DNA of 13,552 bases, taken from NCBI GenBank assembly GCA_021797385.1, contig JAJZZW010000039.1:1-13552 (forward strand), written 5' to 3'. The translations under genes were made by a program, and so were the position numbers. A model generated the notes under the pieces. The model was not told where the DNA came from. It was given only the letters and a program-made list of their open reading frames with translations, and did not search any database. Shown here piece by piece: positions 219-13,552 of this stretch (positions are counted from its first letter, which is position 1; each line of letters starts with the position of its first letter). The stretch is from Thermoplasmata archaeon. GTDB lineage: Archaea > Thermoplasmatota > Thermoplasmata > Thermoplasmatales > Thermoplasmataceae.

Positions 219-890
219 TTATGTGTTATTTCCCTGCTTTAAATGATTTAATGAATACGGGCATTCCATGTTTAAGGGGCATTCACTGCATTTAGGAACG
301 GCCCCACAAATCAGAGCGCCAAAATCGAGAATGGAATAACCGAACACTACCGGGTCATATAAATTAAGCATTTCTACATATTTCTCGTGTATTATTCTAC
401 TTCTTCTTAGTGAATCGGTATATGGAATCCCATTTATTCTTGATATGATTCTTACAGTGTTAGCATCAATTAATGGATCATTGTGCCTGAATGCAAATAC
501 CCTAATGGCAGATACACTGTAATCACCAAGGCCGGGTATTGCAAGAAGCTTCTTTCGATCCTCGGGAATAATACCATCATAAATATCTGTAATCTGGTGG
601 GCAAATTCGCGTAATATCCAGGCTCTTGAGTGGAGACCCAGAGTGAGTAACATGACATCATCATCCCCGATACTTACAATCTTTTGCACTGATGGATACC
701 TGTCTATAATCTGGTTATATACCCTGCCCACCTCAAACGCCCTCGTCCTTCTTAAAAGAATTTCTGAAACTGCAATCCGGTAAGGGTCATAGGTAAATCT
801 CCATGGAAAGTCTCGGTAATTATTAACTCCCCATTTTATGATTTCTGCACCAATCCTATGCTGTAACTGCCCTGCTTTCCCTAAGCACAT
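219..890 (-). CDS. mig: Mig-type thymine-DNA (T:G mismatch) glycosylase, HhH-GPD family with [4Fe-4S] cluster
   Basis: This 223-residue protein is predicted to remove thymine from T:G mismatches created when 5-methylcytosine deaminates, starting base excision repair. Seen: RDFPWR near residues 26-31 and EILLRRT near 43-49, both typical of the MutY/Mig branch; the helix-hairpin-helix IPGLGDYS around 118-125; Tyr124 where endonuclease III has its catalytic Lys; the conserved Asp142 in LIDANTVR; and Cys195, 201, 204 and 210 for the iron-sulfur cluster. Known: Mig of Methanobacterium thermoautotrophicum plasmid pFV1 has Tyr and Asp at these positions and is encoded beside a GGCC restriction-modification system. 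The cluster spacing is C-x5-C-x2-C-x5-C, one residue shorter in the first gap than the usual x6. The ATG at 890 has GGAGTGATT just upstream. The gene is divergent from the HNH nuclease gene, 42 bp away. MutY is less likely because Tyr replaces its Ser. Confidence 0.85.
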   Translation of the reverse strand: MCLGKAGQLQHRIGAEIIKWGVNNYRDFPWRFTYDPYRIAVSEILLRRTRAFEVGRVYNQIIDRYPSVQKIVSIGDDDVMLLTLGLHSRAWILREFAHQITDIYDGIIPEDRKKLLAIPGLGDYSVSAIRVFAFRHNDPLIDANTVRIISRINGIPYTDSLRRSRIIHEKYVEMLNLYDPVVFGYSILDFGALICGAVPKCSECPLNMECPYSLNHLKQGNNT

Positions 891-932
891 CTATAATCAC
901 TCCCGCAAGCGTATATGAAAACACAGGGCTAA
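891..932. promoter_or_regulatory. Compact divergent promoter region between glycosylase and HNH nuclease genes
   Basis: Only 42 bases separate the two divergent start codons. On the minus strand TTTCATATAC (920-911) is TATA-like, 21-30 bases before the glycosylase ATG, the spacing expected for a nearly leaderless archaeal transcript. The ribosome site at 903-895 would argue for a longer leader and a TATA box further up. On the plus strand the candidates are CTATAATC (891-898) and GTATATG (911-917). The sharing suggests coupled expression of nuclease and repair enzyme, but the exact elements are uncertain. Confidence 0.4.
895..903 (-). promoter_or_regulatory. Shine-Dalgarno site for the mig-like gene
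   Basis: Read on the minus strand this is GGAGTGATT, ending four bases before the ATG at 890. It matches the archaeal consensus GGAGGTGATC except for one missing base and the last position. It supports translation starting at 890 on a leadered message. Other genes in the window lack so clear a site. Confidence 0.55.
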
Positions 933-1991
933 TTGAATCTACCAGATAGAAAGTCTTTCACAACTGGAAAAATTTGGCATTCTACGTATTTTGAAAAAAA
1001 TGTTATAGCAATATTCGGAAAACCATCGCCGAAAAATGAGAACGCAAGTAGCGAATACGATAAATTTATCATTCAGCCTCTAAGAGCGCTTTCCTATTCT
1101 GGTGTACTCCTTTCTGAACGGAGAGGCAATGGATACATCTATTCTATAACTGACAATGATATATTGCAGTTCATCTCCATAAAGGAAAGAAACGCCTATC
1201 GTTTCCTCTACCATTACCTATTGAAAGTTCTCTCAGATTCTGATCAACTCATGTATTTTGAAACATTTAAGGATAAGTGCAAGGATGGCAATGTGTCTTG
1301 TGAGGATTATATGGAGCTACGGAACAAATTCATCCAATTCCTAAGGGGACATACACTGATTACTCAAGATGTAGAGATAAGGAGAATATTCCCAAAAATC
1401 CTTAATATTTATAGCTACGCAAACATGATCCAAGGCTCTGAAAAAGGTAGACTATCAAAATATCCGTATATATGGCCCAATCTAATGTATAACAGATCCA
1501 ACTGGAGAGATGTAGACAAGAGTAAAGGGATTACACGCAAAGAGGCAAGCTACAATGTTATCCCTGCGAGAGATTACCTCGATTATCAGATCCGCAAGGC
1601 AAAAGCAATGATAAATAGAAAATATCCCAAAAGTGAGATAAGAGATCGTTATAACAACGGATCTGCATCCCATGTACACCACATCTTTCCAATATCTGAA
1701 AATCCGGAACTTGCAACATATTTAGAGAATGCGATTAAGCTTACGCCCACCCAGCACCTTTCGCTTGCACATCCAGACGGAAACACTCATACAATAGACA
1801 GGAATTACCAAGAGTTATGTTTACTGACCAAAACCGAAAGCATAGGGGATTCGCTAAAGAAAGGGGAAATGTTCTATTCCTTGCCGAATTTTATCTATGT
1901 TGTGAACGTCGGTCTGAAACGTTCCCTTCCAACTTCGGTTGGTTTAGACAGGATCAGGCAAGAAATTTGTTCTTACTATGATAGCACATAA
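933..1991 (+). CDS. HNH endonuclease, probable type II restriction enzyme
   Basis: This 352-residue protein is predicted to cut DNA with a beta-beta-alpha-metal HNH nuclease. The motif is VHHIFPIS around 248-255 (His249, His250), Asn266 in ENAIKLTPTQH, and His275 and His280. The pattern HHIFP-(x)n-LxPTQH-(x)n-AHP is typical of HNH restriction enzymes. The N-terminal half, around residues 45-80, alternates strands and helices in a way compatible with a winged-helix DNA reader. There is no signal peptide or membrane segment. The start is TTG at 933, directly after an in-frame TAA (930-932). The next ATG in frame is at residue 107 and would remove a third of the protein. A weak AGGG (925-928) precedes the TTG. 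The gene neighbours a C5 methylase about 1.1 kb downstream and could be its cognate nuclease, or could replace the missing DISARM nuclease DrmC. Its recognition site cannot be inferred. Confidence 0.75.
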   Translation: MNLPDRKSFTTGKIWHSTYFEKNVIAIFGKPSPKNENASSEYDKFIIQPLRALSYSGVLLSERRGNGYIYSITDNDILQFISIKERNAYRFLYHYLLKVLSDSDQLMYFETFKDKCKDGNVSCEDYMELRNKFIQFLRGHTLITQDVEIRRIFPKILNIYSYANMIQGSEKGRLSKYPYIWPNLMYNRSNWRDVDKSKGITRKEASYNVIPARDYLDYQIRKAKAMINRKYPKSEIRDRYNNGSASHVHHIFPISENPELATYLENAIKLTPTQHLSLAHPDGNTHTIDRNYQELCLLTKTESIGDSLKKGEMFYSLPNFIYVVNVGLKRSLPTSVGLDRIRQEICSYYDST

Positions 1992-2024
1992 AGGATACCG
2001 CATAGATAAGCTTTTAAAAAGTCC

Positions 2025-2049
2025 TTAATTCTTGAAAAGAAAGAATTAA
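2025..2049 (+). terminator. Hairpin downstream of the HNH nuclease gene, possible terminator
   Basis: Perfect 9-base arms TTAATTCTT (2025-2033) and AAGAATTAA (2041-2049) flank a 7-base loop GAAAAGA, 34 bases after the HNH stop codon. The stem is almost all A:T and no T-run follows directly, so it would be a weak terminator. Archaeal termination relies mainly on U-tracts. It could equally be an operator or chance. Confidence 0.3.
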
Positions 2050-2433
2050 CGTGTAAACCAATAATAATAGAAATTGAGCCTGTAAATTCTGTTGAGATAG
2101 CAAGTCATTAGATTAAATATATGACTATTACAGCATGTCAAAACTTTCATAATATGTTCGATGATTCCTATATTTATTGATTTTAATAGTATTAGTGGGT
2201 TATGTACCACATTTTATGTAAATCTATATCTTCCATCCTTAATAAATTTCAGTTAAATAAAAGAAAGAAATGCTTCTTTTGCCCCTATCGTGTAGTAAAA
2301 TACCTAATATGAGGATATAAACACATCTGATATAAAATCGATAATTAACAGGGCAATGAAAGATAAATTTGAGCAAACAATGAGATATGGTAAGTGAAAT
2401 TACATTATAAATGTGAATTCATAGCCAGTGCAA

Positions 2434-2460
2434 TTTATATAATATATAATTTCATATACA
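2434..2460 (+). promoter_or_regulatory. Probable archaeal promoter of the glycosylase-methylase operon
   Basis: TTTATATA at 2434-2441, AATATATAAT at 2441-2450 and CATATAC at 2453-2459 lie 24-50 bases before the ATG at 2484. The last is placed about right for a leaderless archaeal transcript starting at the codon, and the first for a leader of roughly 20 bases. No clear ribosome site precedes 2484, which fits leaderless translation. The region is AT-rich throughout, so the exact box is uncertain. Confidence 0.45.
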
Positions 2461-2483
2461 AATTGGTAATTAAACTATTGAAG

Positions 2484-3146
2484 ATGAAAGAATATAACAT
2501 ACAGGAACAGAGCGTGTTTATCGAAATTTTAGATTTGCTGAAAGATAATTTCTATAAGCCTGATTTATTGGGCAATTTCGCAGATCCAACCAGAGAGTTG
2601 ATTTATCTGATACTCTCACAGAGAACCAGAATTTCAAAAGTTCAGAGTATTATTGATAACATTAACATCGACTGTATAGAAAATACTAGAGAATTAATAT
2701 ATTCTACCGGAAGAGGACATGTTAAATATAATACACTGCACGTGTTATTCTCAGAATTAAAAAATAGGTACGGACGCCTGGAATTACCGACATTTTCTGG
2801 GTATAGTAGTCCTGATATATTCAATGAACTGATATCTCTCCCCGGGATCGGATATAAGGTAGCATCATGTTTAATGATCTATTCCTATAATAGAACAGGA
2901 TATTTTCCGGTTGATTCAAATATTATGAGAATTTTAAAAAGAATCGGGTTGATAGAACAGTCATTGTCTGATCATCATCAAATTCAAAAGACGTTAATAC
3001 ATGCAATACCGCCAAATCTTGAAAAAGAAATTCATGTATCCCTGGTTATATTAGGAATAGAAGTATGTAAACCCGTAAAACCTGCATGTAATGAGTGCCC
3101 TCTCGATATGATATGCAAATATGGTGGTAAATTTGAATATTCTTGA
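2484..3146 (+). CDS. Endonuclease III-class HhH-GPD DNA glycosylase/AP lyase with [4Fe-4S] cluster
   Basis: This 220-residue protein is predicted to excise a damaged or modified base and nick the strand. Seen, numbered from the ATG at 2484: the helix-hairpin-helix LPGIGYK (119-125); Lys125 at the catalytic position of bifunctional glycosylases; Asp144 in FPVDSNIMR; and Cys195, 202, 205 and 211 in the canonical C-x6-C-x2-C-x5-C cluster. This active site differs from the Tyr/Asp pair of the Mig-like enzyme at 219-890, so the two are not recent duplicates. The block FPVDSNIMRILKRIG and the Cys-rich tail resemble the DEMETER/ROS1 plant 5mC glycosylases as I remember them, but those are large proteins with extra domains, so this is only a hint. 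The last 26 bp overlap the methylase start, implying translational coupling. The substrate could be T:G, an oxidised pyrimidine or 5mC. A GTG start at 2394 is possible but unlikely. Confidence 0.8.
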   Translation: MKEYNIQEQSVFIEILDLLKDNFYKPDLLGNFADPTRELIYLILSQRTRISKVQSIIDNINIDCIENTRELIYSTGRGHVKYNTLHVLFSELKNRYGRLELPTFSGYSSPDIFNELISLPGIGYKVASCLMIYSYNRTGYFPVDSNIMRILKRIGLIEQSLSDHHQIQKTLIHAIPPNLEKEIHVSLVILGIEVCKPVKPACNECPLDMICKYGGKFEYS

Positions 3147-4194
3147 GATGTTCAGCGGTGCGGGTGGTTTTACTGCAGAACTTGATAGGAATAAATTTCA
3201 TGTAAAATATGCAATTGACATCGACATAAACGCCGAAATCGTTTATAGAAAAAATAATCCGGAAGTTGAATTTATTAGAAACGATGTTAAACAAATCGCT
3301 TTTAATACGTTAAAATCTGTAGATATGATACTGGCTGGTCCTCCGTGTCAGGGCTTCTCTCTGGCAGGAATGAGATCCAGGAAAAATCATGCATCTGTTA
3401 ATTTCTCTGTCGAGGATGATGAACGGAATAGTTTAACTGTTGAGATTCTCAGGGCTGTTGAAACATTGAAACCGCATTATGTAATAATGGAAAATGTTCC
3501 CGCCATGGAAAATACTATGGTAAACATAAATGGAAAAAAAGAAAATATCACCTCCTTTTATATTGAAGAAATGGAAAACATGGGTTACGGAGTAATAGAT
3601 CCTATCAGGATTAATGCTGCTGATTTCGGTATCCAGCAGAGTAGGAAAAGGTTATTTATACTTGCTACTCTGGACAAAAATGTTGGAAAAAATGAATTGA
3701 CGAATAAAATAAAAGATTCATTTGATCCGGATATGAAAAATTTCGTCTGGAAAAATATAGATTATTATGCTGGCCTGAGCCTGGGCACTGTCCCCGATCA
3801 TATCGGACGACTTCCGAACTCTGACGATTTAAAAATAATTCATAACCTGGGCCAGGGAGAAACGTATAGACATTTACTTGTTCGCAATCCGGAAATTCTG
3901 AAGGGCCGAAGACATGTGATTTACAATTCCACGAATTTTGGAGACCGGTTTTACAGGTTAAAATACGGCGAACCTGCGAAGACCATAGTAGCCCATTTAC
4001 AGAAAGATGGAAACTCGTTTATTCATCCCACACTCGATAGGTCGATTTCAGTCAAAGAAGCTATGATATTTCAGGGATTCCCCGAACAATACGTGTTCGG
4101 AATATCAAAAACCCAATCATATAAATTGATAGGAAATGCTGTAGTCCCCAGAGTTGGAAAGTTTTTAGTTGAATACATAACAGATGCGACTTAA
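3121..4194 (+). CDS. drmMII: DNA (cytosine-5) methyltransferase, probable DISARM class 2 methylase DrmMII
   Basis: This 357-residue enzyme transfers a methyl group from S-adenosylmethionine to C5 of cytosine in a specific DNA site. All key motifs are present in order: motif I FSGAGG (11-16) for cofactor binding; motif IV PPCQGFS (74-80) with nucleophile Cys76; motif VI ENVP (124-127); motif VIII QSRKR (173-177); a target-recognition region of about 80-100 residues (roughly 185-280); motif IX around QGFP (318-321); and motif X GNAVVP (338-343). The length is normal for the family. The ATG at 3121 lies within the glycosylase gene, 26 bp before its stop, with no ribosome site of its own. Class 2 DISARM uses a C5 methylase of this kind; in Bacillus paralicheniformis it was reported to modify CCWGG. 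The specificity here is unknown. It could also serve the HNH nuclease as an ordinary type II partner. Confidence 0.95.
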   Translation: MVVNLNILEMFSGAGGFTAELDRNKFHVKYAIDIDINAEIVYRKNNPEVEFIRNDVKQIAFNTLKSVDMILAGPPCQGFSLAGMRSRKNHASVNFSVEDDERNSLTVEILRAVETLKPHYVIMENVPAMENTMVNINGKKENITSFYIEEMENMGYGVIDPIRINAADFGIQQSRKRLFILATLDKNVGKNELTNKIKDSFDPDMKNFVWKNIDYYAGLSLGTVPDHIGRLPNSDDLKIIHNLGQGETYRHLLVRNPEILKGRRHVIYNSTNFGDRFYRLKYGEPAKTIVAHLQKDGNSFIHPTLDRSISVKEAMIFQGFPEQYVFGISKTQSYKLIGNAVVPRVGKFLVEYITDAT

Positions 4195-4322
4195 TGTATC
4201 TCCAATATGTATAGATAAATTTCTGATCCTGCTTCTGTACGGGAGAGATACTATCATATATATAAATATGGATTGAAATCTTATGTTGTAAAAAGATAAC
4301 CCTACATTTATAACATATATTA
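4195..4322. other. Convergent intergenic region between methylase and DrmE-like genes
   Basis: The plus-strand methylase and the minus-strand operon end face to face here, with 128 AT-rich bases between them. GTATCTC at 4196-4202 and GAGATAC at 4245-4251 could pair across a 42-base loop, and T-rich runs occur on both strands, so transcription probably ends here from both sides. There is no well-formed terminator hairpin. Confidence 0.4.
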
Positions 4323-7160
4323 TCATTTAATTAATAAATTTTTCAGTAAATCATTGATATTATAATTCTCTACATCCATATCCAGTGTTACTATTCCCTT
4401 ATCGATCCTGCATATATGAAATCTCGGCATCGAAGATAAGTTTTCAGCCATCCTATCATGGATAAATTCTACATCTCCGTTGAAATCTCTGTCATTGCCT
4501 GTCATCGTATCGTGGCGGAATTTCTGCAGAGTCAAAATCGCGTAATAACACTTTCTGATCTCGGAATAATCTACTTTTATACCGTACTTTTCTATACTTT
4601 TATATATTTTATAAAGATCTTCGAGACTATGTGGTCGTTCTATATTTATTACTTCATAGTTCTCATCACTGATATCCATCCATAATTTCATATATTCTTC
4701 ATTTTTTGCGAATATACCTGAGGAAGCGATCTCACTTGCAATAATACTCTTCGCCGCTTCTTCATCAAGTTGATTTTTATCGATCAGAACCTGTACAGCC
4801 GAATTGATATCCAGTTTCCATTTTATAGAATTTTCATACAGATATTTGAAGTTATCCCATGTGTATATTCCCCTCTCAAACTTTATTGTGTTCCCGTACT
4901 CTTCCATAAGTTTTATGAATATCTGCTTGAATGATATGTATGTTGTACTATTTTTTATTAGCATATACTTTCCCCTGATAGCATATATTTGATCTGAATT
5001 CGAGATCTTTTCTGTTATTTTATATTCTGAAAATCCCGGATCAAGAATTATAATGGATGAACCTGGAACTATTACTAATGGATGGTTCTCTTCATCATAG
5101 AACACAAACACTGTAGAACCTTTTTTTAATTTCCGTATATAGTTGTTTCTGTTATCCTGGGGATCATTGTAATCATGATCCGAAGCCGCATCCAGAATTC
5201 TGTAATTTAAAGCCTTATAATCATCAATTCCGTATATCTCGCTCATATTTCCGGATTGCCTTCTGTACATCTCATAAAGAAAGCCTGGAACATTTTTATC
5301 ATCCGGATTGATAAATGGTCTTGAACTGAAATTACTTATCCGGTAACTCATTTTTAATCGGAATTCAGCCACTCTTTTTTCATTTCCTATAAAATATATC
5401 ATCTTGACTTTATCGGGGTAAATATAATCAGGAATTAGATTAGTTATAACATAAAAATCCGTCTCTCTATATCGCATTAAATCAGACCATTTACCGAATG
5501 TAACATGGGATCCCAGATCTTGATCTACCATTAAACGTTGTATTTTTTTGACATCGGAAGAAATAACGGCAACAAAGATGTGTGCGGATACACCGTATTT
5601 ATTTTTTATATCACCGATTTGTTTAATTATAATATCCACTGCCGGGGAAATTGGATATTTGTCATATATCGCATGTAACGACCTGTCAAAATCCTCCTGG
5701 CCGGATAATAAATTCCGGTAAATTGTGTAGTAATCAACCCCGGAAGCGATTTCATTATCATAATACATGGCACCGTTCTTACCATCAAAGACCGGAAGTG
5801 GAGAAAGTTGAAGATACTCTAAAAAACGTTTGAACATATTTATCTTATTTTTATCAAAACATTCCGTATAAATATCCAGATCCTGCAATTCCTTCAAATA
5901 TTCGGGTGTAGTAAAATCATAGGCAGGATAATTCCGTGGATAGCTTACATATTTACCTGATGACAATGCTGAAGCATAGGTCCTTGCGGTGTTATTTTTG
6001 TCATAATAATCCATAATCCGATCATTGTCTATAGCGTGGAAGATGACCCCGTTCTTCATTGCGAATGTAATATCCTTTGGTGATAGATATCGCTCCCGGA
6101 TATCCCTGTTTGCCGAAAAAGCAATTACTGCAGTGTTAAAAGACAGAAGGTGCCTGTACAATTCTCTACTATCGTTAAACATACTGTAAAAAGAGTCAAG
6201 TCTTTCTATTATTATGAAATCCGGCTCAAAGGCCTTGATATAGTCTTCAATGCTTTTTACTTCCTGGCTTTCATCAATATACAGAAAGTTTCCACACTTG
6301 AAGTATGGTCCCGGTTTTAACTTTCGGAATGGAAATACTATACTATCAGAGTTATCGATTACATCGGCAATCCATTCGGGATATCTATAAGCACCTGACA
6401 ATGGAAAATTCTTTTTCTTGAGTCTGGATAGTTTAATAATTTCATCGTTATTTTCAGTACTTCCGTCAGTTGGTGATGTCCATCTAATGCTATCATCATC
6501 AGCTGTTATTATTTTTTTAACCCTTTTTAAACTTACACGGAAAAAGTCACGTACTCTCGTATATTTCCCGGCTCCCCTGTAGGATATGGTAGCTTTGATG
6601 ATATTGGTTTCCCTGAAAATATCTATATGTTTAAATTCCTTTTTCAGGTATTTATGTAATTCATCATCCTGCACATGATTTTCAATGTAAAACAATTTTG
6701 TCATATTTGACATTAGATCAACGCTGGAATAATAGCCGGAATCCTGCTGATAATCAGATCTCCCTATCAATACAATTTTGCTATGCTCAGTTCTAGATAA
6801 CATTTCTGACACCATAACAGGTATAAATCTTACTTCTGACCATGGCCATGTAATTATATTTACTCCTTTCATCATTAAAGAATTTTCTATATACGATATT
6901 TCAAGGTCGTTATTTTCGATCTTCCAGAATTTCGTGTTAATATCACATAAATCAATAAATCTGCTTATTTTTGCTCTCACTGCAGGGTTCTCGGTAAGTG
7001 TAGAAAAACCTTTATCTTTCGAAATTCCTTCATGTGAATACGTAGCATGACATTTATTACAATTATAGATAAAATCAGAAAGTTGCTTTTGAGCATATCC
7101 TGATTTATACGGCTCCAGACATGACGGACACTGATAATTTAATGTATAATATTCTTTCAT
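4323..7160 (-). CDS. DrmE-like DISARM protein: zinc ribbon plus probable inactive helicase-like core
   Basis: This is a 945-residue soluble protein with no family motif that I can name with certainty. Seen: an N-terminal zinc ribbon formed by CPSC (11-14) and CNKC (34-37); a stretch FIIIERLDSF (315-324) resembling a Walker B strand in which the acidic DE-box residues are altered; AVIAFSAN (344-351) where SF2 helicases carry motif III; and a second alpha/beta unit at about 505-605. There is no Walker A P-loop, so if it derives from a helicase it has lost ATP hydrolysis. I see no HKD nuclease motif, so it is not DrmC. Its start shares ATGA with the stop of the DrmA-DrmB gene, so the two are co-translated. 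Class 2 DISARM encodes a large protein of unknown function, DrmE, beside drmA, and size and position fit that. The identity is inferred mostly from context. Confidence 0.5.
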   Translation of the reverse strand: MKEYYTLNYQCPSCLEPYKSGYAQKQLSDFIYNCNKCHATYSHEGISKDKGFSTLTENPAVRAKISRFIDLCDINTKFWKIENNDLEISYIENSLMMKGVNIITWPWSEVRFIPVMVSEMLSRTEHSKIVLIGRSDYQQDSGYYSSVDLMSNMTKLFYIENHVQDDELHKYLKKEFKHIDIFRETNIIKATISYRGAGKYTRVRDFFRVSLKRVKKIITADDDSIRWTSPTDGSTENNDEIIKLSRLKKKNFPLSGAYRYPEWIADVIDNSDSIVFPFRKLKPGPYFKCGNFLYIDESQEVKSIEDYIKAFEPDFIIIERLDSFYSMFNDSRELYRHLLSFNTAVIAFSANRDIRERYLSPKDITFAMKNGVIFHAIDNDRIMDYYDKNNTARTYASALSSGKYVSYPRNYPAYDFTTPEYLKELQDLDIYTECFDKNKINMFKRFLEYLQLSPLPVFDGKNGAMYYDNEIASGVDYYTIYRNLLSGQEDFDRSLHAIYDKYPISPAVDIIIKQIGDIKNKYGVSAHIFVAVISSDVKKIQRLMVDQDLGSHVTFGKWSDLMRYRETDFYVITNLIPDYIYPDKVKMIYFIGNEKRVAEFRLKMSYRISNFSSRPFINPDDKNVPGFLYEMYRRQSGNMSEIYGIDDYKALNYRILDAASDHDYNDPQDNRNNYIRKLKKGSTVFVFYDEENHPLVIVPGSSIIILDPGFSEYKITEKISNSDQIYAIRGKYMLIKNSTTYISFKQIFIKLMEEYGNTIKFERGIYTWDNFKYLYENSIKWKLDINSAVQVLIDKNQLDEEAAKSIIASEIASSGIFAKNEEYMKLWMDISDENYEVINIERPHSLEDLYKIYKSIEKYGIKVDYSEIRKCYYAILTLQKFRHDTMTGNDRDFNGDVEFIHDRMAENLSSMPRFHICRIDKGIVTLDMDVENYNINDLLKNLLIK

Positions 7161-10100
7161 ATTTTATCAAAGGAAAATAGACTTCTATCTAGTCCTGTAT
7201 TCATATGTTCACACGAAGTTTCAGATAGCATCAGACAACTATAGCACACTGCACCATTGATCGGATAACTCTTTAGTTCAATGCACAGGGGATCGTTTGA
7301 GCAATGTGCTATTAATTCTTTGGCATTTTGTACTATATTTACCAATTCATTTTTTGAAAGGCCTGTTAATCCACCGAGACTCCCGTCTTCTCCGGGCTCC
7401 GATGTGTATATGAGTATGGAAGATTTCTGACCAGTATCATCCATATATATACGCTCGTGCAGGGATGACGATGAATAACCACTGAGTAACGATAGACTTT
7501 TTATTAAAGCGTGTGAGAGGGTGTGAGTGATAAAAAAGGAGAATTTGTTTGAATAATTCCATAACGGGTTTCTATCTTCATATTGATCAAGTTCCGGTGG
7601 ATATTTTCCCGATGGATCAATTCCCTCGAGTTCTATGAATAAAGCCTCTCCGGTTCCGTGAAAAGCAGCGTAATATTGATTACCGGGCACATCTATGTGG
7701 GAATATATAATTTTAGAGTCCTTATCTGCCTTATATCTATTGTAACCGATGTTGCTTGTAACAGTTCCGATTTTACTTATACCATATATATTAAATGCTA
7801 TTCTATCAATTCCACTTTCAATATGAAAAGGGTTATGATCTATAATGAAGTCAGGATTTTCATCTCTATCGATAATTTTATTCTTTATAGTCAGATATTC
7901 TTTCCGGATCATATCCATAAAACCAACTTTTTTTTCTCTTTTCAAGAATTCTTCGTACGCGGATTTCAAATTATCAATATTATTGATTGTTATAAATTTA
8001 ATTAATAACTGTTTTTGGTCCTGAGTAATTACGGAGCTCTTCACAATTGATAAATATGTACTTTCCTCTATATTTTTCAAATCTATAATTATTTTTACAG
8101 TACTAGCGAAGACCGTGTCCTGAAAATTCTTGATCAGTGGATCAACTGTTTCTGGGAGATCCAGGAAAGTAACAGTCAATGGATACCTGACTGATGAAGA
8201 TTGCCTTTGAACTATTTTAATATTGTTCTTGCACATAACATGTCTATCTTCTTCTGCAATAAAACCGGTGCATTTTACGGGCACATTGTAAAGTTGGCTC
8301 ATGGTTTTCTCTACCTTACATACAGGGCACTTTATTGTTATATCGGCCAGAGACGGCCCGTGTGCATTCCATGTATAATAATCATGTCCCCTTTCTTCGT
8401 GCCCGTGAAGCATCCTATTCCATGGCAGATCATCCATATGTCCGTCTTTACATATTGAAATAAATCGTATTGTAGCTAAATTATTCGATTTATGACAGGA
8501 AGGACAAACATCATAAATCCCATGATCGAACAGTATGTTTTCTTTTTCTGGGTGTGGCTCGCTATTATAGCATATTTTCCATTTCGGAAATTCTTCGCTA
8601 TCATAAATATATTCTTTTTGATCCAGGTTTTCTGATTCATTTGTAGGTAAATCGAATAATCGGATCTGTTTATCAGTACCCGGGTTTAGTGAGGTAATAA
8701 TTGACACTATCTTTTCATTTTTGATTTCTCTGGAAGCCAGGTAATCCAGATTCCCCAAATTTCTATAACCGTCACTACGTAAACCTTTACTCAGTGATAG
8801 CATTACTCTCGGGCCTTTCAGAGTTTCTATTATGGAGCCGGGACCGTATGAAAATATAAACTGAGACCGCCTTATCACCTGAGTGTTATCATATTTAGCT
8901 GTTCTGGATATCCTTATAGCAAGAGTTTCATCGATGTTTCGGAGAGATTGCGGGGAATTGTGATAAACCACACTGACATTATTTTTGTAATTATCTCCTG
9001 GCGCCCCCAGTAAAACCGAGTATGATTTGTTATTGCGAACGTTAAATCGATTAAAATAAAATTGATCCGGGTTTTCTTTAAAATATTTCCATCTATCTAA
9101 TTCAAATTTAAGTGAATTCATTGCGTCAATTTCTTTAATAGATTTCAGTCTATCTTCGAAATGTGAATTCATTCTGGATAAATCTTCCTCTGCAGCTGAA
9201 TTGTGTATTACATCCGGGGATTTTCCATACCAATCCACGGCAGGATTTCTCATATTGCGGAGGAATGATGTCATAACAGCACCACCCGCAATTGACACTG
9301 CCCCTGTAGAGAAAGGAGAGACCGAAATGTTTTCTATTTCCATATTGCTTCTAAGATGATATCTGGCAAACATCTCATAATGACTGAGGTCCCTGGGTCT
9401 TCCGGCTGATAACATTGTTATTACTATTCCTCCGTGGAGTCGTCCTATTCTACCGGTCGCCTGTATATACTGAGATGTTGTTTTGGGTTGCCCTACTACA
9501 ATCATGGATGACAGGACAGGTAGATCAATCCCTGTACCGAACATGGAGGTAGCAAACACCGCTATCGGTTTATCTTTGTTGTTAGTTCCCCTAGCATCCC
9601 CTAATTTATCTATTATATACGGTAAGTCAACCGAATTAACTCTGCCGGATAATTCAAGATGATTGTAAATCAGGTCATTTGCTTCCGGATCATTATGAGA
9701 AAGTTGTAATTGCTTTAATCTTTCCTTTACATCTTCTTCAATGAGAGACTCACCGGTACCGAGTTCTTTGATAGAATTAAAATAATTGACAATTGTCCAG
9801 TAATATTTAGAATCTGAATCATTCTGTATTGTTATGTTAGTATGTATCATAGATGCCATCAATCTGGTGTACATTGTATCTTTGGATATTCCCGGAGAAC
9901 AGATACCGGCGTAAATTTTTCCTTTTTCCTTATCTTCCCACATTTTATGAGCATCAGAATACTTTATAAAGAAGGAATCGTCAATGTTTTTACCAGATGG
10001 AGGAAATTGGAATAACTCTCTGTTGAATACTCTTCTTGCTTGAATTTCACCACCTTTGATTGTAGCAGTTGAAGCTATATATTTCAGTTTACCACCGTTG

Positions 10101-12658
10101 TCTATTATAAGGGAGTCTACTGTTGTTTCATAAATACCTACCATGCTTCCGAGTGGACCGTCGATGAGATGTAATTCATCCTGTATAATCATATCAGGAG
10201 GCTTAAATCCCGGAATATTGATTGTACTTTTCCTGGCTTTTATCGTAGTATCTCCGGAATATAATCCATTTCTCGAAAAACCGTAATAAGGGTTATATTC
10301 ATTTACATTTCCGAATATAGGTGCGATAGTCGGGTCATATGCCAATCTGGCGAGCTTATCCACTGTCCCTATTATTACAGAGGGTAATCTAGAATAGATC
10401 TGTTCGTCAACTGTATATGCTGTTATAGGTACCCTTTTTTTATAGAATATTGTTCTGTTATCGATTTCCTTTAGTACAATAGTTGATTCTTTACCTGAAC
10501 CTGTATTTTCTGCGGGTTCATATTCAAAATATTGTGTATTCCCGTCGAGATTATTCAATTTACATTCAGGATTGGGGCAGTAAATTTCAAAGTTTAGATA
10601 GTTTTCGGCAGATTTTTTTTGTCGTCCCGGCTCATCACCATACGGAAAATAACCGGGATTGAGGATACTTATAGGTAAGAATTTTGCTTTCATTTGAGTC
10701 AGCCAGTGCCGTATATGTGTATAGGATTCACTTATTTCATCTATGCCTATCCCACTTGTCTTTTTCATTTTCAATATGCAGGTTCCATCATAACCAATAT
10801 TATTCAGCAATAAAGCACTTTTTATGATTGTTTTAATTCGGGTATTCGTGGTCAACTGTTCGACATCACGTATCAACCTGACCAGATCAGAGTCCGTGAT
10901 AATATGAGAATCGTCGCATTCAATAGTCAGATACACGTCAAATATCTCACTTTTGATGTTATCGCCCTGTATTGATAAACGAGTACCGCAAAATGGACAT
11001 ACCAGTATCTGTGCCGTTTCAGACGTTTTTTCACCATTCTTCAAAGAAAGATTTTCCAGCGCACCCTTGTCTCCACGTAATTCATGTGGTGTCATGGTAT
11101 TTCCTACCCATAATCCCACAGAAAATCGCATTTTACCGAACAAATCCCTCGAATTTTTTGAACCTGTGCGATCTTTATATCCCTTCGGCCTCCAGCCCCT
11201 GATTCTTATATATTCTGCTGCAGTCATGGCTTTTACCATTCTACGGAACTGCTGGATGGTTAACAGTCTCAATGTATATCGACTCAATACAGCGGTGCCA
11301 TAACCTGAATTATCATTATAATGCAATCTCCGGAAAGATGAAATGAAGATGGATAAAAATATGTATGTTTCTGTCTTCCCGCCCCCGGTTGGAATCCATA
11401 ATAAGTCCATATAATCTCTATCATCCGAATTAATTGAAACAAGAGAAGGGATAGCAGATAAAATATATGCTATCTGAAAAGGGTACCAATTGAATTCCCC
11501 TTTGCTTTCATCCTGCTGGAATGCCATTACACGATTCGCAAAACAGAATGATAGTCTTGCATTTTCATCTTTTGTTAGACATTCAATGCCATTTTCTAAT
11601 TTTTTTAAAAATCTCTTTTCCTGATTTATAATGTTAGTACCGTAGATGTCCTGTGTCATATTATTATCTATATATTTTTTATTTTTATCTATCCATTCCT
11701 TGTACCGCTTGATTAAAGGATTGAAATTCTCGATTAACTCAGAAGGGGTATACATATCTGATAATTCTGATGCAGAAAATATTATGTTTTCAAAATTTTC
11801 TGAAAGCTCGTGGCTCGAAACTAATGCAGAAGGGACGGTTATCAAAGGTATGAATTCACTTCTCAAATCGCATGTGAAGAAGTCCGGTTCAATATGGAAA
11901 TACTTACCATCTGGCCATATAAGGTCATTGTCCAGCTGTTCATTATAATCTATATCCTTCCATATAGCAGAACATAAAAGCCCTTTCCCGTATACTTTTT
12001 TATCTCGATAAAGATAAGATATTTCATCATCGACATTGAGCGTGTCCAGCAATTTCCCGTCTTTTATATTTATTCTTATAGACGGTTGAAATATAACATT
12101 CTCCGTTCTTTCCTTTTTATCCGGTAATTCAGTTTTATTTATAAGAGACAGTATGAATATATTATTTTCTCGTTTGATATTAAATATGAGTTTAATATTA
12201 GAGTTTGGATAGCTTATGTTCATACGCCTTGACTCAGAATTCTGTAGCTTGCAGTCATATGAAAATTTATGTGGCTTTCGTTTCCATGTATTCCCGTTTT
12301 CAATTTTATGGTAAGTACCCCATGTAATAACAATTAGTGGATTCGCATTATTATTATCAACTTGAAAAGAAAGACCGAAAGAAGAGGGTCGCTCGAATTG
12401 AGATATATTTGATACTATATCGGATATTTCTGAATCTATATCGTCCGGAACTGGTTGATCCATAAGATTAATTGTATCATTATCAGAATTGACTATGTTA
12501 TCGCCTGAATTAGAAGCTGATTCTATTGGTTTCAAGGTTCCTATAATGTATTCAGCATAAGGATCGGTTACTGAAATTATTTCCTCTGAGCCGTTACGTG
12601 GCCCGTACAGATCTCTTATCATTTCCTTTAGTATATGAGTTCTCAAAAAATCCGACAT
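7157..12658 (-). CDS. drmAB: DISARM DrmA-DrmB fusion: SF2 helicase joined to DUF1998 protein
   Basis: This 1833-residue protein combines two DISARM core subunits. DrmA part (1 to about 1250): an N-terminal segment with GPRNG and DPYAEYIIG, then Walker A PTGGGKTE (423-430), TLRLLTIQQF (462-471), a Zn ribbon (Cys554, 557, and 694/699), Walker B DELH (827-830), STAT (863-866) and motif VI QATGRIGR (1066-1073), so an ATP-driven DNA translocase. It ends with SLRNID (1238-1243), like free DrmA. DrmB part (about 1260-1833): it opens with RRSQFIFSYGPGSI (1263-1276), the usual DrmB beginning, then CPSC (1385-1388), CKDGHMDDLPW (1403-1413), CPVC (1444-1447), and the DUF1998 signature (1711-1765, with GSLGGLTGL) plus terminal cysteines 1786, 1792, 1805, 1808 and 1816. 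Separate DrmA and DrmB form a complex, so fusion fixes 1:1 stoichiometry. The linker is about 15 residues. It is the first gene of a leftward operon, with the ATG at 12658. Confidence 0.9.
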   Translation of the reverse strand: MSDFLRTHILKEMIRDLYGPRNGSEEIISVTDPYAEYIIGTLKPIESASNSGDNIVNSDNDTINLMDQPVPDDIDSEISDIVSNISQFERPSSFGLSFQVDNNNANPLIVITWGTYHKIENGNTWKRKPHKFSYDCKLQNSESRRMNISYPNSNIKLIFNIKRENNIFILSLINKTELPDKKERTENVIFQPSIRINIKDGKLLDTLNVDDEISYLYRDKKVYGKGLLCSAIWKDIDYNEQLDNDLIWPDGKYFHIEPDFFTCDLRSEFIPLITVPSALVSSHELSENFENIIFSASELSDMYTPSELIENFNPLIKRYKEWIDKNKKYIDNNMTQDIYGTNIINQEKRFLKKLENGIECLTKDENARLSFCFANRVMAFQQDESKGEFNWYPFQIAYILSAIPSLVSINSDDRDYMDLLWIPTGGGKTETYIFLSIFISSFRRLHYNDNSGYGTAVLSRYTLRLLTIQQFRRMVKAMTAAEYIRIRGWRPKGYKDRTGSKNSRDLFGKMRFSVGLWVGNTMTPHELRGDKGALENLSLKNGEKTSETAQILVCPFCGTRLSIQGDNIKSEIFDVYLTIECDDSHIITDSDLVRLIRDVEQLTTNTRIKTIIKSALLLNNIGYDGTCILKMKKTSGIGIDEISESYTHIRHWLTQMKAKFLPISILNPGYFPYGDEPGRQKKSAENYLNFEIYCPNPECKLNNLDGNTQYFEYEPAENTGSGKESTIVLKEIDNRTIFYKKRVPITAYTVDEQIYSRLPSVIIGTVDKLARLAYDPTIAPIFGNVNEYNPYYGFSRNGLYSGDTTIKARKSTINIPGFKPPDMIIQDELHLIDGPLGSMVGIYETTVDSLIIDNGGKLKYIASTATIKGGEIQARRVFNRELFQFPPSGKNIDDSFFIKYSDAHKMWEDKEKGKIYAGICSPGISKDTMYTRLMASMIHTNITIQNDSDSKYYWTIVNYFNSIKELGTGESLIEEDVKERLKQLQLSHNDPEANDLIYNHLELSGRVNSVDLPYIIDKLGDARGTNNKDKPIAVFATSMFGTGIDLPVLSSMIVVGQPKTTSQYIQATGRIGRLHGGIVITMLSAGRPRDLSHYEMFARYHLRSNMEIENISVSPFSTGAVSIAGGAVMTSFLRNMRNPAVDWYGKSPDVIHNSAAEEDLSRMNSHFEDRLKSIKEIDAMNSLKFELDRWKYFKENPDQFYFNRFNVRNNKSYSVLLGAPGDNYKNNVSVVYHNSPQSLRNIDETLAIRISRTAKYDNTQVIRRSQFIFSYGPGSIIETLKGPRVMLSLSKGLRSDGYRNLGNLDYLASREIKNEKIVSIITSLNPGTDKQIRLFDLPTNESENLDQKEYIYDSEEFPKWKICYNSEPHPEKENILFDHGIYDVCPSCHKSNNLATIRFISICKDGHMDDLPWNRMLHGHEERGHDYYTWNAHGPSLADITIKCPVCKVEKTMSQLYNVPVKCTGFIAEEDRHVMCKNNIKIVQRQSSSVRYPLTVTFLDLPETVDPLIKNFQDTVFASTVKIIIDLKNIEESTYLSIVKSSVITQDQKQLLIKFITINNIDNLKSAYEEFLKREKKVGFMDMIRKEYLTIKNKIIDRDENPDFIIDHNPFHIESGIDRIAFNIYGISKIGTVTSNIGYNRYKADKDSKIIYSHIDVPGNQYYAAFHGTGEALFIELEGIDPSGKYPPELDQYEDRNPLWNYSNKFSFFITHTLSHALIKSLSLLSGYSSSSLHERIYMDDTGQKSSILIYTSEPGEDGSLGGLTGLSKNELVNIVQNAKELIAHCSNDPLCIELKSYPINGAVCYSCLMLSETSCEHMNTGLDRSLFSFDKI

Positions 12659-13144: not shown

Positions 13145-13552
13145 TTAGCAGGCAGAATCCCTTTCATGCATGATGAATGTGGATTCAATAATCTCGTCCA
13201 TGGTGTAAAACAAATCACTGTTCTTTACTGTCATCCTTCCCATATCATAAAATGACGCCTTCCTGTTAGATTTTAATTCAGTGACATAATTACTGCCAAG
13301 GAACTTCACGCTTGAGTACCATGAATCAACAACCTTGCCTGACACATTGAAGTTGTTTTCTGCTGTATTGAATATATCTGACATGATCTCAAGCTTTGTT
13401 TTAAATTCTTTTTCTGACTGTGCCCTCTTAACGTAAAGCCTTGTTAGGAATGGATAGAATATATCAGTATCAAGGTCGTACAGTACCGAGGTAACGGATT
13501 GGTGTGCAAGCACATTGCTTCCTGATGCATGGTCAAAGAACCATCCTACATA
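13145..13552 (-). pseudogene. DDE transposase fragment (IS4/IS701-like), cut by the window edge and prematurely ended
   Basis: The open frame continues to the right window edge (GWFFDHASGS is encoded before the first possible GTG start at 13513), so the N-terminus lies outside. The fragment carries VVDSWYSSVKFL followed by VTELKSNRK, which is the region of the second catalytic Asp in IS4-like and IS701-like DDE transposases, with the typical basic SNRK downstream. The frame stops at 13147-13145 only about 60 residues after that Asp, whereas the catalytic Glu and its Y-R-E region normally lie around 100 residues beyond it. None of the downstream frames shows a Y-x2-R-x3-E-type motif. The element therefore appears truncated or frameshifted and is probably inactive. 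It marks the edge of the defence island and fits acquisition or rearrangement by mobile elements. Confidence 0.7.

Follow-up and report, generated by a model that had tools for sequence, protein, structure and literature searches.

A DISARM-type locus of a Thermoplasmata archaeon that may carry its own repair of deaminated 5-methylcytosine

5-Methylcytosine deaminates to thymine, and does so faster the hotter the cell. The very-short-patch repair enzyme Vsr, a PD-(D/E)XK nicking enzyme, is encoded beside the methylase Dcm. The locus described here would follow the same principle, in that a C5 methylase and an enzyme repairing the damage that arises from its mark are encoded together; Vsr, however, is no glycosylase, unlike the products of the genes that we call gly1 and gly2. 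DISARM, a many-gene defense system, was reportedly first described by Ofir et al. in 2018. In DISARM, DrmA and DrmB are as a rule two genes, according to the available portion of a preprint (PMC12458937), which also describes ARMADA, whose helicases carry a Vsr-type nuclease at their end and have PglX-like methylases as partners. Mig.MthI, a T:G mismatch glycosylase, is encoded near the C5 restriction-modification pair of pFV1.

We analyzed a window of 13,552 nucleotides, the whole of the stretch available from contig JAJZZW010000039.1 of a member of the Thermoplasmataceae (assembly GCA_021797385.1). ORF calling on the window returned six genes as real ORFs at the positions given in the initial annotation, and family profiles agree with the gene content described there: a C5 methylase, a DrmA-DrmB protein, a zinc-ribbon protein, an HNH nuclease and two HhH-GPD glycosylases (Table 1). 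We read the locus as a C5-methylating DISARM-type core (drmAB, p945 and the methylase) whose glycosylases may act as built-in repair of deaminated 5-methylcytosine, and we put the probability of this reading at roughly 0.58.

Table 1. Features of the analyzed window, with positions counted from its first nucleotide.
Feature	Position	Strand	Description
gly1	219-890	-	HhH-GPD glycosylase, Mig/MutY group, 223 aa
HNH nuclease gene, 5'-truncated	933-1991	+	PDLC03488, E 4e-80; HHIFP..N..H core retained
gly2	2394-3146 (listed ORF); likelier 2484-3146	+	EndoIII-like HhH-GPD glycosylase
C5-cytosine DNA methylase	3121-4194	+	357 aa; C-5 methylase, E 2e-57
p945	4323-7160	-	945 aa; orphan; N-terminal zinc ribbon
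drmAB	7157-12658	-	1833 aa; DrmA (residues 5-1249) and DrmB (1258-1828) in a single frame
Transposase piece, IS701/ISC1217 type	13145-13552	-	Cut by window edge; outside the system

The drmAB protein scored 1226 bits against the PADLOC model of DrmA and 452 bits against that of DrmB. It also exceeded the cut-offs of the NCBIfam models DrmAL (NF038326; 1190.8 bits, cut-off 999) and DrmB (NF038324, DUF1998-type; 352.6 bits, cut-off 240), and it retains the helicase motifs GGGKT, DELH, STAT and TGRIGR. The proposed DISARM-type core with an adjoining C5 methylase is thus upheld by DrmA and DrmB scores above curated cut-offs. As in the available portion of the DISARM structure paper (PMC9142583), DrmA and DrmB have a DNA methylase beside them; here, however, the two are fused, DrmC, DrmE and DrmD find no match, and an orphan 945-residue protein and two glycosylases are present. 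ARMADA likewise joins a YprA-family helicase to a DUF1998-type module, but drmAB matches the DISARM models. The label "class 2" found no support: neither DrmE nor DrmC has a match, and the label is an interpretation rather than an observation. Among the seven window proteins scanned, none matched DrmC or a PLD nuclease, which may lie outside the window, and no window protein matched DrmD.

The p945 gene shares 4 bases with the end of drmAB. Its product begins with a zinc ribbon, CxxC-x19-CxxC, that is also present in a 65% identical homologue, one of two homologues found; none was found on plasmids. We considered p945 as a recognizable DrmE and rejected this assignment, since it has no DrmE match at 0.01 in PADLOC or NCBIfam and a profile comparison with a haloarchaeal protein annotated as DrmE gave no match; it may still be a very diverged DrmE, or a DrmE gene may lie beyond the window. 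DrmC models did not match p945 either, and its predicted structure, from an alignment of two sequences, has a mean pLDDT of 33. The locus is predicted to serve antiviral defense. Viral contigs carrying drmAB, p945, the methylase, gly2 or gly1 were not found.

The methylase, which adjoins the DISARM core on the strand opposite to drmAB and is of C5 type, would mark self DNA for drmAB. In the mechanism that we propose, deamination of 5-methylcytosine would produce a T:G mismatch that both erases the self mark and mutates the host; gly2 and gly1 would excise the T (or U) from the mispair, and base-excision repair would then restore the C:G pair. The substrate and the division of labor between gly1 and gly2 are inferred. 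A point against the repair reading is that it requires no DISARM-specific function. The methylase scored higher against the PADLOC type II model (210 bits) than against the DrmMII model (180 bits) and may thus be part of a restriction-modification system of its own. The locus would then be an accidental defense island, with the methylase and glycosylases forming an independent C5 restriction-modification or solo methylase module beside drmAB-p945 and with the HNH gene as the remains of a restriction enzyme. The (+) orientation of gly2 and the methylase, opposite to the (-) orientation of drmAB-p945, favors such an arrangement, as does the transposase piece at the window edge. Against it, p945 and gly2 probably also stand together in a sister locus, judged by the equal length of the longest contig (12255 bases) listed for the nearest homologue of each beyond near-identical ones (65% and 74%). 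We regard an accidental assembly as possible but doubtful.

The HNH nuclease is probably no part of DISARM. Approximately 45 further N-terminal residues, present in 10 of 12 aligned homologues, are missing from the window protein (of the remaining homologues, P0001 is a 99% copy that starts at the same place, and P0115 is even shorter), and an in-frame TAA directly precedes the TTG start of its ORF. In the loci of 80 relatives, a C5-methylase match lies at most 3.5 kb upstream of the HNH gene in 75, and the upstream methylase frame spans at least 700 codons in 65 of those 75; the window contains no such frame. One of these upstream methylases (locus L002) reads as a fusion of C5 and N6A enzymes. 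An HhH-GPD match was found in none of the 80 loci. The window gene therefore has neither the full length nor the partner methylase of the type II HNH family PDLC03488, and truncation, a different partner elsewhere and the lack of glycosylase matches among its relatives led us to reject it as a DISARM nuclease. We read it as the probable remnant of a different restriction system. Its membership in a type II restriction enzyme family favors an accidental island, but the relatives pair with another large methylase that is absent here, and the 0 of 80 glycosylase count also speaks against such an island.

The gly1 protein passes the Pfam HhH-GPD cut-off (E 1.5e-6) and matches PADLOC PDLC03398 (E 6e-32); its best PDB relative is 1kea, "Possible G-T mismatches repair enzyme." The roles of pocket positions in MutY and Mig, such as Val45 and Gln182, are set out in the available portion of PMC2714593. 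By alignment, the gly1 pocket has Glu37, Ala at the position of Escherichia coli MutY V45, Tyr at S120 and the catalytic Asp, and gly1, like gly2, retains the four [4Fe-4S] cysteines. The Mig pocket and fold are thereby matched, except that gly1 has Tyr where Mig has Leu187 and MutY has Gln182. Three of the four MutY rows likewise have Tyr at S120, which is thus no mark of Mig. We rejected gly1 as an ordinary MutY: at 223 residues it is too short to hold the C-terminal domain of MutY, and it has Ala in place of V45 and Tyr in place of Q182, although a MutY origin is compatible with the tree, in which gly1 sits at an open fork and, in two of three rebuilds, falls on the MutY side under an open fork. 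We assign gly1 to the Mig/MutY-type glycosylases; its pocket is Mig-like, and it would remove T or U opposite G.

gly1 resembles Mig.MthI in its fold group, its pocket Ala, the absence of the MutY Gln and a nearby C5 methylase, from which it is separated by 2.2 kb, on opposite strands, with the HNH relic in between. It differs in sequence (33% identity, Tyr for Leu187) and in setting, since here the neighbor is a DISARM-type core instead of an intact restriction-modification pair and a second, EndoIII-type glycosylase is present. The repair reading fits Mig, whose gene on pFV1 has those of a C5 methylase and a restriction enzyme nearby (PMC2714593, available portion). When gly1 was compared with 23 glycosylases, the best match was a Gloeothece plasmid gene (140 bits) with no annotated C5 methylase nearby; the enzymes of the bacterial loci G345 and G546 gave 129 bits each, one MutY 120 bits and Mig 119 bits. 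That gly1 shows no particular closeness to the glycosylases of DISARM loci, and that it is set apart from the methylase, are further points against the repair reading.

The second glycosylase, gly2, falls under the Pfam HhH-GPD cut-off (E 8.5e-4) and matches EndoIII structures in the PDB (E 9e-14). It carries the EndoIII-family features IGYKVA and PVDSN, which hold the Lys and Asp typical of bifunctional enzymes, together with the four cysteines. Its score against the NCBIfam nth model is 60 bits, far under the cut-off of 211.7, and gly2 is therefore no ordinary Nth; with only two homologues in the protein database, we rejected it as a housekeeping Nth. Translation probably starts near 2484, where homologue P0124 begins (P0123 begins seven residues earlier). 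The first start codon of the methylase lies 26 bases ahead of the gly2 end, so that the ORFs overlap. Among 23 other glycosylases, gly2 best matched the enzyme of bacterial locus G349 (101 bits; next 72), and the two are joined in the tree with support of 98/95, on long branches, so that the join may be false.

The glycosylases could instead be effectors: DrmAB would open or load on foreign DNA, and gly2 and gly1 would make abasic sites and nicks, taking the role of the DrmC nuclease, or strip modified viral bases. The lack of a DrmC match in the window and the EndoIII Lys/Asp pair of gly2, AP-lyase residues, are consistent with this, and glycosylases of other folds do act in defense, namely Brig1 (PMC11078745), Brig3 (PMC13160076) and the PabI-type restriction glycosylases (PMC10273834), as far as the available portions of these papers go. 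The main texts of the Brig1 and Brig3 papers do not mention DISARM, and the available portion of PMC10273834 reports no DISARM-glycosylase link. Brig1 and Brig3, however, are of the uracil-glycosylase type rather than HhH-GPD (PMC11078745, PMC13160076, same portions), gly1 retains Mig-like pocket residues, and Mig, the characterized relative in such a setting, repairs T:G. We consider an effector role improbable. In one form of it, DrmAB would load on unmethylated or modified invader DNA and pass it to gly2 and gly1 for cutting by base excision and AP-lyase nicking, a base-excision branch of DISARM replacing DrmC; this seems equally improbable. DrmC and a glycosylase coexist in loci G345 and G349, which implies that the glycosylase is no simple DrmC replacement.

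An HhH-GPD gene occurs in 5 of 93 bacterial DrmA-type loci (G1643 and a second place in G154 were left out), and all five belong to the 28 loci that have a C5 methylase (5/28 versus 0/65; one-sided p 0.0019). Three of the five come from one class, a point against the repair reading. G345, G349 and G510 pass a curated DrmA cut-off, and G1039 and G546 fall under both DrmA cut-offs. The initial annotation had called for a co-occurrence check in archaeal genomes; these bacterial loci show enrichment with the C5 methylase, but 88 of the 93, including 23 of the 28, have no HhH-GPD match, so that by the refutation criterion of that annotation the link is optional rather than constant. G345, G349 and G510 resemble the window in holding a C5 methylase, DrmA, DrmB and an HhH-GPD glycosylase within one locus, and in all three the glycosylase follows the drm genes in the same orientation; they differ in having separate DrmA and DrmB, DrmC (G345 and G349) and one glycosylase each. 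The gene rows are DrmMII, DrmA, DrmB, DrmC, glycosylase in G345; DrmA, DrmB, DrmMII, glycosylase in G510; and DrmA, DrmB, DrmC, UvrD-like, glycosylase in G349, whose C5 methylase is 4.6 kb off. In G345 and G510, the glycosylase forms a single row with drmA, drmB and DrmMII, which argues against an accidental island. G546 points the other way: its Mig-like gene adjoins genes for a C5 methylase and a restriction enzyme, 2.2 kb from its DrmA-type locus.

The archaeal comparison consisted of six haloarchaeal plasmid loci, as the genome scan gave 80 loci without an archaeal name among them; on one haloarchaeal plasmid, a Mig-like gene lies between a C5 methylase and drmA. At eight of nine plasmid places, hand-picked from 80 records and including mig of pFV1, a Mig-like gene and a C5 methylase share the same stretch. 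In the plasmid stretches retrieved, such pairs also occur where DISARM is absent, as an independent module would. We drew no trend from 16S G+C, taken as a sign of heat-loving hosts, for which matches were available in 10 of 30 genomes (middle 1545 bases, one stretch per genome; the G210 and G851 values are probably off): glycosylase-bearing G349 and G1039 gave 0.605 and 0.575, and among glycosylase-free genomes G328 gave 0.644 and the other seven 0.50-0.56. The word "glycosylase" is absent from the main texts of PMC12458937 and PMC9142583, and a literature search, with most subscription journals beyond its reach, found no report of a DISARM-glycosylase link. The idea that glycosylases are DISARM accessories holds for occasional loci (G345, G349, G510 and the haloarchaeal plasmid) and fails as a general rule. 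The link between glycosylases and DISARM is real but uncommon.

The self mark of DISARM is DNA methylation, which in its C5 form comes at a mutational cost. If some DISARM loci do carry a mismatch glycosylase of their own, this cost would be large enough for selection to act on it, and the rule of a C5 methylase plus a repair enzyme, known from restriction-modification, would extend to a many-gene defense system. It would also allow one to test directly if accessory genes join a locus according to its methylase and not its helicase.

The DrmA and DrmB parts of the window lie in one protein, drmAB. Residues 6-1249 match the NCBIfam DrmAL model (1190.8; cut-off 999) and residues 1260-1828 match DrmB (352.6; cut-off 240); the PADLOC models concur on both parts, and the helicase motifs GGGKT, DELH, STAT and TGRIGR were found. 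Because DISARM normally has DrmA and DrmB as two distinct genes, according to excerpts of a published account (PMC12458937), the fusion is unusual. The neighboring 945-residue zinc-ribbon protein, p945, had no match in Pfam, PADLOC, NCBIfam or PDB sequences, and its structure model was uninformative. Its homologues among 5.8 billion proteins were two entries, one identical and the other 65% identical. A profile comparison with three haloarchaeal proteins preceding drmA, one annotated DrmE, gave no match and is weak because so few sequences entered it. The same longest contig, of 12255 bases, is listed for the 65% homologue and for a 74% identical homologue of the glycosylase gly2, from which we infer one shared sister contig. 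The transposase piece at the right edge matches an archaeal family, a weak pointer to an archaeal host.

Features of the Thermoplasmata archaeon window (JAJZZW010000039.1)
Feature	Position	Strand	Basis
gly1 (HhH-GPD glycosylase)	219-890	(-)	ORF
HNH gene, truncated	933-1991	(+)	ORF
gly2 (HhH-GPD glycosylase)	2394 (probably 2484)-3146	(+)	ORF
C5 methylase	3121-4194	(+)	ORF
p945	4323-7160	(-)	ORF; 4-base overlap with drmAB
drmAB (DrmA-DrmB protein, 1833 residues)	7157-12658	(-)	ORF
IS701/ISC1217-type transposase piece	13145-13552, right window edge		Pfam 'Archaeal putative transposase ISC1217'

Bacterial genomes were searched with the PADLOC DrmA model: 398 of the phylum of genome G001, 37 and 151-154 of two classes, and 299, 247, 292 and 246 of the phyla of G560, G558, G562 and G559. 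For 93 strong DrmA places we retrieved the surrounding sequence in stretches of at most 20 kb, namely 18 (from 19 genes that reached E 1e-55 or better in one search), 26 (all new genomes of three of the searches) and 49 (all places from the G562 and G559 phylum searches). As some stretches were shortened by contig ends, and the curated DrmA cut-offs were applied to the five glycosylase-bearing loci only, we call these loci DrmA-type. An HhH-GPD gene (tblastn, 1e-4) was found in 5 of the 93, those of G345, G349, G510, G546 and G1039, three of them from one class, and in none of the 49 fetched last. All five are among the 28 loci with a C5 methylase match, giving 5/28 with the methylase versus 0/65 without it (one-sided Fisher p 0.0019; p 0.011 in the first 44 loci alone), for loci that are not independent draws. 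The initial annotation had proposed the glycosylases as accessory parts of an archaeal DISARM variant; in bacteria this holds for some C5-methylating loci, where the association is real, and fails as a general rule, the accessory being uncommon.

Three of the five loci exceed the DrmA cut-offs. G345 (locus L125) has the order DrmMII (E 3e-204), DrmA (1625 bits over two ORFs; cut-off 999), DrmB (489.7; cut-off 240), a short DrmC (E 1.5e-55) and the glycosylase; apart from the break within drmA, consecutive ORFs overlap by 4-23 bases. That drmA (L125:9271-13256) is divided into 224- and 1101-residue ORFs by a frameshift, a sequencing error or a natural split. In G510 (L151), DrmA (987.8; cut-off 950), DrmB and DrmMII (E 1e-126) precede the glycosylase gene, which overlaps DrmMII by 19 bases; a UvrD-like helicase and an Hsp70-like protein, recognized by sequence reading, lie upstream of drmA on the same strand (L151:12085-15865). 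G349 (L126) carries DrmA (1236.6; cut-off 950), DrmB, DrmC (E 4e-57), a UvrD-like gene and a gly2-like glycosylase, with neighbors at most 4 bases apart from DrmB onward and, on the opposite strand 4.6 kb past drmA, a C5 methylase. The DrmB assignment in G510 and G349 comes from a tblastn match with the window protein. Since further same-strand ORFs of no recognized kind follow in all three loci, the transcript may continue past the glycosylase gene. DrmA falls below the cut-off in G1039 (L164; 883.9), where the glycosylase and a C5 methylase diverge next to the drm genes, and in G546 (L152; 858.6), where a Mig-like gene (Mig being the T:G mismatch glycosylase of plasmid pFV1) has as neighbors a C5 methylase and the gene of a type II restriction enzyme (E 1e-70), 2.2 kb from drmB.

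The HNH nuclease, initially counted as part of the composite island, we read as a relic. It belongs to a family of type II restriction enzymes, and of 12 homologues aligned with it 10 are longer at the N terminus by ~45 residues, which include a conserved RFMDQKVTPDVLC-like stretch; the homologues P0001 and P0115 lack this extension. In the window, homology ends at a TTG start whose preceding codon is a stop, and a query with the missing stretch gave no match at that start (best E 0.07, elsewhere). P0001, 99% identical and on another contig (12683 bases), starts identically, and an error confined to this assembly is therefore an unlikely source of the truncation. We sampled 80 bacterial loci of this widespread family (L001-L080; 13 stretches shorter than 10 kb). 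The window methylase was matched in 77; in 75 of them the match has the same strand as the HNH gene and lies upstream by at most 3.5 kb, and 65 of these 75 matches lie within an open frame of at least 700 codons, so that bacterial members mostly follow directly on a long methylase frame (65/80). Such pairs would constitute a restriction system; in the one locus read, L002, the 834-residue frame directly before the HNH gene reads as a C5 and N6A fusion. No such long frame exists in the window. Neither gly1 nor gly2 was matched in any of the 80 loci, which, set against 5/28, gives p 0.0009 in a comparison with loci from other hosts.

The best solved relative of gly1 is 1kea, a 'Possible G-T mismatches repair enzyme', which is Mig. 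Mapped on Escherichia coli MutY, gly1 has Glu37, Ala at 45, Tyr at 120, Asp138, Tyr at 182 and the four cysteines; excerpts of PMC2714593 give Val45 and Gln182 for MutY, and Ala and Leu at those positions for Mig. The Tyr at 182 is common to the glycosylases of G345, G510, G1039 and G546 and occurs in no other row of 24. Among the compared glycosylases, gly1 scored highest with a Gloeothece plasmid gene (140 bits), followed by Caldicellulosiruptor (131), G546 and G345 (129), Bacteroides finegoldii MutY (120) and Mig (119); the glycosylase tree leaves its placement unsettled. gly2 is endonuclease III-like and keeps the catalytic Lys and Asp, and only two homologues were found, 96% and 74% identical. 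Its closest relative among 23 other compared glycosylases is the G349 enzyme (101 bits; next 72), and the tree joins the two with support of 98/95 (89-94 SH-aLRT in three rebuilds), subject to a long-branch warning.

The archaeal sample comprised six haloarchaeal plasmid loci with DrmA. That of Natronobeatus contains a C5 methylase (minus strand), a Mig-like gene, a GHKL-type ATPase (by sequence reading) and DrmA, then a DrmB-like gene, a PLD protein, a large methylase and an HNH gene. Halarchaeum shares this layout (ATPase 83% identical) and DL31 has a similar one with the ATPase only as a remnant; no Mig-like match was found in either DrmA locus. In Natronobeatus and Halarchaeum the gene immediately preceding drmA encodes this GHKL-ATPase-like protein (L084:8915-11632; 52 residues remain in DL31), which reads as a DISARM partner at the position where Halomicrobium has DrmE. 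In Halomicrobium and Halobaculum, a Mig-like gene and C5 methylase lie at distances of 7.5 and 13 kb, respectively by plasmid, from the drm genes and look like a separate module; the Haladaptatus QDMS2 DrmA locus has neither gene of that kind. Haloarchaeal plasmids L083, L086 and L146 have in common a C5 methylase and Mig-like glycosylase near DUF6339 and hypothetical proteins, with ATP-binding and SprT-like proteins in two of the three, possibly a separate defence system.

From a list of 80 plasmid records matching gly1, twelve were fetched. Three places annotated as adenine glycosylases, which served as MutY rows, had no C5 methylase within flanks of 0.6 to 3 kb. Of the nine other stretches, with Mig-like genes and hand-chosen rather than random, eight have a C5 methylase (pFV1, pCALKR01, Haloplanus, Natronobeatus, two Thermus, Halobaculum and Halorubrum). 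These HhH-GPD genes track the C5 methylase as their partner. The methylase and glycosylases might nonetheless be an independent module that merely adjoins drmAB and p945: the ninth stretch, the Gloeothece plasmid with the best match to gly1, has no C5 methylase, and one pocket mark, the Tyr at 120 that gly1 shares with Mig, is also present in three of four MutY rows. Because of these two points we slightly raised the weight of such an accidental island, which we still consider rather unlikely, and slightly lowered that of a C5-methylating DISARM-type locus whose glycosylases repair methylation damage, which stays the likelier reading at a probability of roughly 0.6.

Mig is known for the repair of deaminated 5-methylcytosine, and this would be the simplest role for gly1 and gly2. 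gly1 is probably a pure glycosylase, and gly2, with its AP-lyase residues, could open the strand after base excision; we infer this division of labour. Glycosylases of other folds act in defence, as described in excerpts of three reports (PMC10273834, PMC11078745, PMC13160076), and an effector role for gly1 and gly2 against invading DNA, which this precedent favors, seems improbable to us. We conclude that C5-methylating DISARM loci genuinely, though uncommonly, carry an HhH-GPD glycosylase as an accessory, and that, whereas G345, G349 and G510 have one each, the window has two such enzymes at once.
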